From Phycisphaerales bacterium (lineage in GTDB: Bacteria > Planctomycetota > Phycisphaerae > SM23-33 > FEN-1343): DNA of 64,000 bases. The stretch covers positions 1-64,000 of the forward strand of contig PMYD01000082.1 of NCBI GenBank assembly GCA_003171335.1, read 5' to 3'. The notes under the pieces were generated by a model, which saw only the letters and a program-made list of their open reading frames with translations, did no database searches and had not been told where the DNA came from. Positions 1-21,750 of this stretch are shown here, one piece after another (positions within the stretch are counted from its first letter, which is position 1; each line of letters starts with the position of its first letter). The position numbers and the translations under genes are program-made.

Positions 1-9
1 GCACAGGCC

Positions 10-33
10 ACAGGCTAAAAGCCTGTGCCACCA
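10..33. repeat. CACAGGCTAAAAGCCTGTG palindromic repeat
   Basis: CACAGGCTAAAAGCCTGTGCCACC. Confidence 0.85.
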
Positions 34-10495: not shown

Positions 10496-10520
10496 CCACA
10501 GGCTGAAAGCCTGTGCCACC
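10496..10520. repeat. CACAGGCTGAAAGCCTGTG palindromic repeat
   Basis: CCACAGGCTGAAAGCCTGTGCCACC; same unit at 10-33, 13336-13359, 19841-19865 (inverted), 19886-19910 and 19922-19946. Confidence 0.9.
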
Positions 10521-13273: not shown

Positions 13274-13371
13274 GGCTGTAGCTCAAGAGTGGAAACCGGA
13301 ACTGGGGAATGGGAGCACATCCGGAATCAGGAAGACACAGGCTGAAAGCTTGTGCCACCTTGTCGGCTGCT

Positions 13372-18869: not shown

Positions 18870-19042
18870 AAGGCTGAACACAAAGATCACGAAGACCACA
18901 AAGAGCACGAAGTAAAGACGAGAGAGAGCAACGGCCGGATGTTTTCCTGCTTTTGCTCTCTCTTTTTCCTGGTCTTTCTTAGCTCTACTTTTCTTCTTCC
19001 TTCGTGTCCTTTGTGATCTTTGTGGTCTTTGTGTTCGCTGTT
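18870..19042. repeat. Nonamer-arm inverted repeat element (R1 copy c)
   Basis: GAACACAAAGATCACGAAGACCACAAAGAGCACGAAG ... CTTCGTGTCCTTTGTGATCTTTGTGGTCTTTGTGTTC; contains AACGGCCGGA at 18930-18939. Confidence 0.85.
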
Positions 19043-19075: not shown

Positions 19076-20722
19076 ATGGCAAACCCCACATTAGCCATCC
19101 TCAACGGCCGTATCTGGTCCAACGGGCCGGCCACCGCCATCGCCCTCGCGGGCGATCGAATAGTCGCCGTCGGCAGCGATCGCGAGATCCGCTCGCTGTG
19201 CAGCGCCGAAACCCGCATCCTCGACGCCGCCGGCGGCAGCGTTCTGCCCGGTTTCAACGATGCCCACGTGCACCTGGAATCTTCCGGCGGCAACCTGCTT
19301 GGGATCGACCTGCGCGAGGCCCGCGATGAGGCCGATTTCGCCCGCCGGCTGGGCCGCTACCTGGCCGACCAGCCCGCCGGCCGCTGGATCCGGCGGGGAA
19401 TCTGGGACCACGAAAACTGGCCTTCGCACCGCCTGCCCACACGGCAAGTGCTCGATCCGGTCAGTCCTCGCCACCCCGTCTTCCTCAGCCGGCTGGATGG
19501 CCACGTGGCCGTGGCCAACAGCCTAGCCCTGGCAGCGGCGAAGATCGACCGCCATACCGCCGACCCGGCCGGCGGCCGCATCGGCCGCGAGTCCGACGGC
19601 ACGCCCAACGGCCTGTTCTTCGACACCGCCTTGGCGCTGATCCGCCAGGCAATGCCGGCGGCGACGGAATCCGACCGGCTGGAGGCGATCGAAACCGGCC
19701 TGCGGCACGCCGCCGCACACGGCCTGACCAGCCTCCAGGCGATGTGCGGCACCGGCGAATACGACCTGCTGCGCCGGCTGGAACAATCCGGCCGCCTGCC
19801 CATCCGCGTGAGGGCGATCTTGCCGCCGGAGGTCCTGGATGGTGGCACAGGCTTTCAGCCTGTGGCCGGCCGGCAGGAAGAGAATCCACAGGCTGAAAGC
19901 CTGTGCCACCTCAAAAAAAGCCCACAGGCTGAAAGCCTGTGCCACCAGGGATTTCTTCGCACCGGGGCGATCAAGCTCTTCGCCGATGGCTCCTTCGGCG
20001 CCGCCACGGCGCTCCTCTTTGAGCCCTACGACGACCGCCCCGACTCTTCGGGCCTGGCCATTTACGAGCCGGGCCAGCTCGAGGAGTTGATTGGCCGCAT
20101 CGACGCCGCCGGCCTCCAGGCGGCGGTGCACGCCATCGGCGACCGCGCCGTGGACAGGGTGCTGACCGCCTTCGAGCGTGTGCTCGCCGCCGGCGGCCGC
20201 CGGCAGGCCCGCCACCGCATCGAGCACGCGCAGATGGTTCGCCCGGCAGACCGCGCCCGCTTCGGAGCCGCCGGCCTGATCGCCTCGATCCAGCCCTCGC
20301 ACTGCATTGACGACCTGCGCTGGATTTCCAACCGCCTCGGCGGCCGCTGCCGCATGGCCTACCCCTACCGGTCGCTAGCGGCCGCCGGCGCGCCCATCGC
20401 CTTGGGCACCGATTGGGACGTCGAACCTCTAAACCCGATGCTCACGCTCTACGCCGCCATCACCCGCCAAACCACCGCCGGCGACCCGCCGGCCGGCTGG
20501 TTTGCCGATGAAACGGTGACACTCGCCCAAGCCATCCGCGACTACACCTTCGGCTCGGCCTACGCCGAATTCGCCGAGGCCGACAAGGGCACGCTCGAGC
20601 CCGGCAAGCTCGCCGACCTGGTCATCCTCTCACGCGACATCGCCGCCTGTGCGCCCGCCGAATTGCTCGCCACCCGCCCGCGCGCGACCATCGCCGGCGG
20701 GCGCGTGGTGTTTGAGGCGTAG
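19076..20722 (+). CDS. Amidohydrolase family protein (YtcJ-like)
   Basis: ILNGRIWSNG, GGSVLPGFNDAHVHLESSG, KLFADGSFGAATALLFEPY, LGTDWDVEPLNPM; start after the repeat-encoded MSFVIFVVFVFAV leader. Confidence 0.88.
   Translation: MANPTLAILNGRIWSNGPATAIALAGDRIVAVGSDREIRSLCSAETRILDAAGGSVLPGFNDAHVHLESSGGNLLGIDLREARDEADFARRLGRYLADQPAGRWIRRGIWDHENWPSHRLPTRQVLDPVSPRHPVFLSRLDGHVAVANSLALAAAKIDRHTADPAGGRIGRESDGTPNGLFFDTALALIRQAMPAATESDRLEAIETGLRHAAAHGLTSLQAMCGTGEYDLLRRLEQSGRLPIRVRAILPPEVLDGGTGFQPVAGRQEENPQAESLCHLKKSPQAESLCHQGFLRTGAIKLFADGSFGAATALLFEPYDDRPDSSGLAIYEPGQLEELIGRIDAAGLQAAVHAIGDRAVDRVLTAFERVLAAGGRRQARHRIEHAQMVRPADRARFGAAGLIASIQPSHCIDDLRWISNRLGGRCRMAYPYRSLAAAGAPIALGTDWDVEPLNPMLTLYAAITRQTTAGDPPAGWFADETVTLAQAIRDYTFGSAYAEFAEADKGTLEPGKLADLVILSRDIAACAPAELLATRPRATIAGGRVVFEA
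19841..19950. repeat. Three palindromic repeat units in frame inside the amidohydrolase gene
   Basis: GGTGGCACAGGCTTTCAGCCTGTGG, CCACAGGCTGAAAGCCTGTGCCACC twice; translated as GGTGFQPVAGRQEENPQAESLCHLKKSPQAESLCHQG. Confidence 0.9.
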
Positions 20723-20814
20723 CATGGGCCGCGTCTTTTCGGAAGCCCGCAGGGCATAACGATATGCCGAGCTATTGACGTGCCGTGCTTCTTATGATCC
20801 GTCCCTGCATTTTC

Positions 20815-20885
20815 CGGGAGCCCGCAGGGCGACTGAAAGTAGCCCCTGGCGCTGGCCGACGCGCAGCGCCGGCCGAGCCTGGGGA
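20815..20885 (+). repeat. REP element (RAYT-associated), copy 1
   Basis: CGGGAGCCCGCAGGGCGACTGAAAGTAGCCCCTGGCGCTGGCC-gacgcgca-GCGCCGGCCGAGCCTGGGG; GTAG tetranucleotide followed by an imperfect hairpin. Confidence 0.85.
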
Positions 20886-20917
20886 AACGCGGGACGGATT
20901 GATCATCCCGTCTTTTT

Positions 20918-21047: not shown

Positions 21048-21500
21048 TCAACCCCACATCGTCTCGGGATCAAACGGAATGTGGTGCCGTTTCAGGAACG
21101 CAATGAATTCCTCTTCATACGTCACCTTACGGTGATGCTCCGCCTGGCCGGCAATGTATGATTCCACATCCGGCCGAATGGAATCCGCCACCGTGAACGC
21201 GGCGTAACCCTGTTGCCACTTGAAACGATCCTTGGGCTTGAGCGTTCGATTCACCCATCCGGTCGTGAGGCTCTTGAGCTTCCCCACCGCCGTCGGAACG
21301 CCTATCGGCGGCCTCAACGAGATCAGCGCGTGCAGGTGGTTTTCCGTGCCGCCCAGGGCCAGGGCGCAGCCGAGTTCCTTCTTGGCAACGCCGCCGGCAT
21401 ATTCGTACAGGCGGTGCTGAAAATCCCGCGTAATGAGCGGCCGGCGGTCCTTCGTGCTGAAGATGACGTGATAGAGCAGGTGCGTGAATGTGTGGCTCAT
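21048..21500 (-). CDS. REP-associated tyrosine transposase / IS200-like Y1 transposase (RAYT)
   Basis: MSHTFTHLLYHVIFSTKDRRPLIT, GGTENHLHALISL (HUH-type HxH), C-terminal SYIAGQAEHHRKVTYEEEF; flanked on both sides by REPs. Confidence 0.85.
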   Translation of the reverse strand: MSHTFTHLLYHVIFSTKDRRPLITRDFQHRLYEYAGGVAKKELGCALALGGTENHLHALISLRPPIGVPTAVGKLKSLTTGWVNRTLKPKDRFKWQQGYAAFTVADSIRPDVESYIAGQAEHHRKVTYEEEFIAFLKRHHIPFDPETMWG

Positions 21501-21617
21501 GGGGACTCCCGTAAACAGAGTTTGGAACCGGGAGGTTAGCGGGGCGGTCGCGAGGTGTCCACAGAATTGGGGGACTCAATCGCCCTACCGGGCTCCGACC
21601 TCTGGGGGCCTCGGTTT

Positions 21618-21687
21618 CCCCAGGCTCGGCCGGCGCTGCGCTTCGGCCAGCGCCAGGGGCTACTTTCAATCGCCCTGCGGGCTCCCG
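21618..21687 (-). repeat. REP element (RAYT-associated), inverted copy upstream of the RAYT gene
   Basis: CCCCAGGCTCGGCCGGCGCTGCGCTTCGGCCAGCGCCAGGGGCTACTTTCAATCGCCCTGCGGGCTCCCG, reverse complement of copies 1 and 2. Confidence 0.85.
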
Positions 21688-21750
21688 GAAGAACGCCCGA
21701 AGAACATAGTTCCTCAACCTCCGCCATTCTCCAGGTTTTCATTTCTTGCT

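Follow-up and report, generated by a model that had tools for sequence, protein, structure and literature searches.

REP palindromes translated in frame inside an amidohydrolase gene of a Phycisphaerales bacterium, with RAYT genes nested in host reading frames in its phylum and in Verrucomicrobiota

The amidohydrolase gene at positions 19076 to 20722 of the window, the 64,000-nt stretch of Phycisphaerales contig PMYD01000082.1 analysed here, carries a cluster of three REP palindromes that lie in frame. In the reading that we favour, with a probability of about 0.88, REPs that were probably placed by a RAYT took the place of some residues of a variable surface loop and have been retained as a frame-preserving, tolerated loop. 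The initial annotation had reported three copies of a palindromic unit in this gene, one of them inverted, and indeed CACAGGCTGAAAGCCTGTG occurs there in three perfect copies starting at 19846, 19887 and 19923 (19846-19864 inverted, 19887-19905 and 19923-19941); the peptide it had quoted, GGTGFQPVAGRQEENPQAESLCHLKKSPQAESLCHQG, is exact, and the ORF is open throughout. The features of the window are as follows.

19076..20722, plus strand: Amidohydro_3 enzyme gene of 548 aa, host of the REPs, open frame; PF07969 at residues 48-546 (E 3e-109)
19842..19864, plus strand: REP copy 1, read as GGTGFQPV; tag GTGG at 19842-19845, palindrome at 19846-19864, exact match to the genome-wide unit
19865..19886, plus strand: spacer between REP 1 and REP 2, read as AGRQEEN
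19887..19909, minus strand: REP copy 2, inverted relative to copy 1, read as PQAESLCH; palindrome at 19887-19905
19910..19922, plus strand: spacer between REP 2 and REP 3, read as LKKS
19923..19945, minus strand: REP copy 3, oriented as copy 2, read as PQAESLCH; palindrome at 19923-19941
9..31, minus strand: intergenic REP with the loop variant TTT; 19-nt unit at 9-27, 1 mismatch
10497..10519, minus strand: REP at a gene edge; 19-nt unit at 10497-10515
13336..13358, minus strand: REP at a gene edge; 19-nt unit at 13336-13354, 1 mismatch

The unit is palindromic as first described, with the refinement that its true length is 23 nt, a GTGG tag standing 5' of a 19-nt palindrome (GTGG-CACAGGCTTTYAGCCTGTG), and that it belongs, as a REP, to a RAYT system. 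It is of the GTRG type, since a GTGG tag, unpaired at one end of a short palindrome, is combined with many copies per genome, for the most part at intergenic sites: 114 exact tagged copies of GTGGCACAGGCTNNNAGCCTGTG were found genome-wide while the reversed control gave 0, and the majority of 75 REP clusters, classified over ~560 kb around the listed REPs (window included) with a codon model trained on that sequence, are extragenic, frequently directly after a stop codon. Within the window, CACAGGCTGAAAGCCTGTG scores 11 matches, one palindrome being able to score on both strands, against a mean of 0.04 in dinucleotide shuffles of the window. The further copies that had been called intergenic are real, one exact and two with 1 mismatch, but they are intergenic only in part, the others lying at gene edges. 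The loop of the palindrome is TTC or TTT in nearly all copies genome-wide, and among 294 sampled genomes of the phylum the tagged palindrome was met in one other genome only (G199), with different loops (TCC, once TCT). Neighbouring REPs face each other with the tags outward in 28 cases and in the opposite orientation in 2, which is the arrangement of REPINs, and copies 1 and 2 of the amidohydrolase form such a REPIN-like pair. A linked RAYT with this REP on either side is present at C118:1-780; it has intact HUH and Tyr motifs and is the only one of the 13 Y1_Tnp matches in the genome to be flanked in this way.

Alignment with orthologs, as had been suggested, showed that relatives have no repeat loop and possess instead a shorter, non-repeat one; a short loop of this kind stands at the REP position in aligned relatives from several phyla. 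Between shared anchors, 49 residues were counted from the sequences here and 26 in the nearest ortholog (G002, 55% identity). The repeat stretch is not the clean 110-nt insertion first proposed: the cluster spans 104 nt (19842-19945), yet compared with the nearest ortholog the protein is longer by only ~23 residues (69 nt), so that ~12 native loop residues were replaced, a partial loss that simple insertion leaves unexplained. In a 59-row alignment no invariant column falls within the replaced part and all invariant columns are kept, including H64/H66, K300, H352, H384 and D446. The AlphaFold2 model has an intact fold (mean pLDDT 92.2; closest solved folds 3icj and 3igh), and pLDDT drops below 50 only at residues 258-275, 277-279 and 281-288, which are REP-encoded. 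The earlier suggestion of an enzyme that may tolerate a loop encoded by repeats is thus well supported in silico by the kept invariant residues and the predicted fold.

We propose that the cluster is a REPIN-like pair plus one extra REP, probably put into the gene by the RAYT of the same REP family, and that these REPs displaced part of a variable surface loop in the Amidohydro_3 enzyme. The insertion would have been retained because its length keeps the frame, the frames used contain no stop and the loop accommodates the added residues, the repeats being read through as a disordered loop of ~35 residues. The protein is presumably produced and active. A recent pseudogene, in which enzyme activity was lost through the REPs and the frame is open by chance (1 in 3) before decay sets in, appears unlikely: ~12 native loop residues are gone and the REP loop precedes the strand that carries K300, yet no further damage is seen across 548 codons, every invariant residue is retained, the fold is predicted with high confidence and the remaining in-gene clusters of the genome are likewise in frame. 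We give slightly less credit still to the idea that the loop was selected for a new function, for example as a binding segment or as an expression-controlling hairpin in the mRNA. The transcript does show a strong predicted hairpin (z = -7.8), but such folding is expected of any inverted REP pair, and a role tied to one particular peptide is hard to reconcile with REP-encoded segments being present in unrelated proteins and read in every usable frame. An assembly artefact, with unrelated pieces joined at repeats, is highly improbable, for although contig ends in this draft often fall within or close to REPs, the gene is continuous inside a 73-kb contig, its protein halves match, and similar in-frame REPs and RAYTs recur across many assemblies made independently, some of which consist of very few contigs.

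Retention of a tolerated, frame-preserving insertion can be set beside the other genes of the genome with translated REPs. Six of the 75 clusters are in frame inside genes, the amidohydrolase among them, and leuS is a seventh gene; the amidohydrolase aside, at least six genes thus carry a REP in frame, leuS and the following included.

CN_hydrolase: four in-frame REPs, with VEVAQAFSLCPSSQESQAKSLCHT twice
squalene-hopene-cyclase-like protein: in-frame REP cluster
DUF4340 protein: three in-frame REPs
two large membrane proteins: in-frame REPs, five in one of them

No clear breakage of a frame by a REP was found among the inspected clusters, and this, together with the small number of in-gene clusters, points to strong purging of in-gene REPs. 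Seven of seven in frame at a 1-in-3 chance corresponds to ~0.0005, a figure to be taken as a guide only, the classification favouring in-frame cases. Besides, a REP supplies the final codons and the stop of genes whose protein sequences read as ruvA, xylA and a P-type ATPase (L157 3282-3344, L183 829-956 and L184 2522-2664), and the TTT loop variant reads TAG in the frame used at these ends.

The RAYT flanked by the amidohydrolase REP lies itself inside a gene. It is in frame with LeuRS residues 237-843 in an open stretch of 880 residues (L133 1-2640, contig C118), and this junction from RAYT to LeuRS is directly continuous. The RAYT and its REPs sit in a loop of the LeuRS editing domain, where native loop residues remain beside the REPs (EIEEWFAERAEMGFPA against VEDWFADRAETGFPA in the relative G002), and three REPs precede the RAYT in the leuS frame with a period of 27 nt, so that the number of REP copies leaves the frame unchanged. 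Against the model NF047646 (REP-associated tyrosine transposase) the RAYT scores 76.8 bits, under the cut-off of 80. LeuRS residues 1-234 are encoded on another contig, C144 (L132 3313-4266), which ends within the same REP and has 18 nt in common with the start of C118; a second leuS was not detected by TIGR00396 in this 90.9% complete genome, and in most relatives LeuRS is matched across the insertion point as a single piece. Joining of the N-terminal LeuRS across the break between C144 and C118 is thereby strongly indicated. The leuS RAYT would be made as an internal LeuRS domain, with no need of its own promoter, and it presumably made the amidohydrolase insertion. The REP/RAYT lineage of this genome seems to live partly within protein genes.

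With the leuS RAYT as query we searched 294 genomes of the phylum, reading the frames and checking with Pfam, and 26 named genomes were searched by their loci. RAYTs with host sequence on either side in one frame were found in several genomes of the phylum and in Verrucomicrobiota, the nested RAYTs being joined to core-gene hosts through palindrome-encoded linkers.

fabZ: nested RAYTs at L232, L234-L237, L239, L240, L220, L245 and L246 (10 of 16 genomes, one family; one cut by Ns)
alaS: nested RAYTs in frame in G104, G124 and G175 (loci L230, L233, L244)
alaS of G301: RAYT with broken frame
Eco57I-type and other DNA methylases: RAYTs in G126, G222, G091 and G310
DUF1156 methylase of G117: RAYT; downstream, the frame shifts at a poly-C run
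FAD/FMN oxidoreductase of G319: RAYT between the two domains
DnaE: RAYT at L256, TGS_VER2 (Verrucomicrobiota)
RecG: RAYT at L263, AV71 (Verrucomicrobiota)
AlaRS, second site: RAYT at L262, ADurb.Bin118 (Verrucomicrobiota)
DNA methylase: RAYT at L254, K_DeepCast (Verrucomicrobiota)

DNA methylases are a recurrent class of RAYT host (L209, L219, L228, L229, L231, L254). Both HUH histidines and the tyrosine are kept in 19 of 19 aligned nested RAYTs, and the nested transposase sequence is under selection, since the RAYTs of fabZ and alaS show dN/dS values of ~0.07-0.21 where synonymous sites are unsaturated, a rough estimate made near saturation. No Hint/intein splicing domain was found in the hosts scanned with Pfam.

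In the same fabZ family the RAYT is absent from G319, G280 and G124, and from G190 (L274, G190:C3), where a short palindrome-encoded peptide, NTGGAGVTPVPPGR, stands exactly at the RAYT site of the relatives, a REP-only state like that of the amidohydrolase. Between G301 and G175 the host parts of fabZ are nearly identical (pS 0.20) while the RAYTs have diverged (pS 0.59); fabZ is for this reason best read as a preferred site with re-occupation or exchange, and a single ancient insertion of the RAYT is unsupported by these values. In the RAYT tree the fabZ copies do not all group together, support being weak. The nested fabZ may not be the sole copy, the same genomes having in addition a more distant FabZ-like match.

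REPs are termed extragenic, and RAYTs are regarded as free-standing single-copy genes whose benefit is unknown. A RAYT in the frame of leuS, fabZ, alaS, dnaE or recG offers a testable answer to how RAYTs are expressed and persist, as it would be made together with the host protein and its loss by a frame break would cost the host protein too. We consider it somewhat probable that the RAYTs here and in Verrucomicrobiota are translated internal domains of LeuRS, AlaRS, FabZ, DnaE, RecG and DNA methylases, expressed by the host and protected by its frame, at sites that are emptied and re-occupied, with the amidohydrolase loop as a RAYT-less form. On this model the REP-encoded linkers would render nested RAYTs tolerable, expression would come from host promoters, the host reading frame would guard the RAYT against loss, and the sites would be emptied and then refilled, each time with another RAYT, much as homing elements do; a RAYT-less outcome of the same process would be seen in the amidohydrolase loop. 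The nested RAYTs also provide natural cases of core enzymes apparently bearing a loop insert of 230-300 residues.

Inteins with homing endonucleases likewise bring a mobility enzyme into the reading frame of core protein genes. The nested RAYT resembles them in being a mobility enzyme in core genes, with a fabZ site that is empty or differently filled, and differs from them in that no splicing domain was found in the hosts scanned with Pfam and the protein apparently keeps its insert. REPs in frame within ORFs have been known since 2013, Opitutus terrae included, where most GTAG-20 elements bear a GTGG tag (Di Nocera et al. 2013, PMC3733652). The present REPs share with the GTAG/GTRG REPs of that paper the tagged palindrome, the occurrence in pairs and clusters and the insertion of 20-30 aa into unrelated proteins without a change of frame, while palindrome sequence and organism differ; among the cases of REPs in genes seen there, a RAYT gene within a host gene does not figure. 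The same paper cites the Rickettsia palindromic elements, also translated in frame in many unrelated genes, and places RPE-4 and RPE-6 in the CGTC super-family, which it describes as having no dedicated transposase; the GTGG tag and the linked RAYT of our elements point elsewhere. With REPINs and RAYTs (Bertels and Rainey 2011, PMC3116915; PMC6006769) they share inverted REP pairs and a single-copy HUH/Tyr transposase flanked by its own REPs, but those REPs are mostly extragenic and their RAYTs free-standing. In-frame REPs within RAYT genes have been on record since 2018 (PMC6006769). That subclass survey excluded proteins that were longer than expected, regarding them as fusions or annotation errors, and RAYT-nested proteins may have been thrown out of family surveys as errors. 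Altogether, the amidohydrolase locus belongs to a known kind, that of in-frame intragenic REPs (PMC3733652). As the open literature searched, with few subscription journals covered, held no account of RAYT genes in frame within host genes, nested RAYTs are taken as a new variant.

Two further repeats border the amidohydrolase gene. Directly upstream (18876-19036) lies a 40-nt imperfect inverted repeat (CACAAAGATCACGAAGACCACAAAG...). On the other side, a Y1 gene on the minus strand (21048-21500) lies ~0.3 kb beyond the amidohydrolase gene; it was rejected as the cognate transposase, because the inverted repeat on its two sides is another one, of 77 nt, and because it shares only 20% identity with the leuS RAYT. 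The two arms of this inverted repeat, at 20812-20888 and 21614-21690, match at 97% and carry a different repeat, GGGAGCCCGCAGGGCGACTGA, unrelated to the REP in the amidohydrolase gene.
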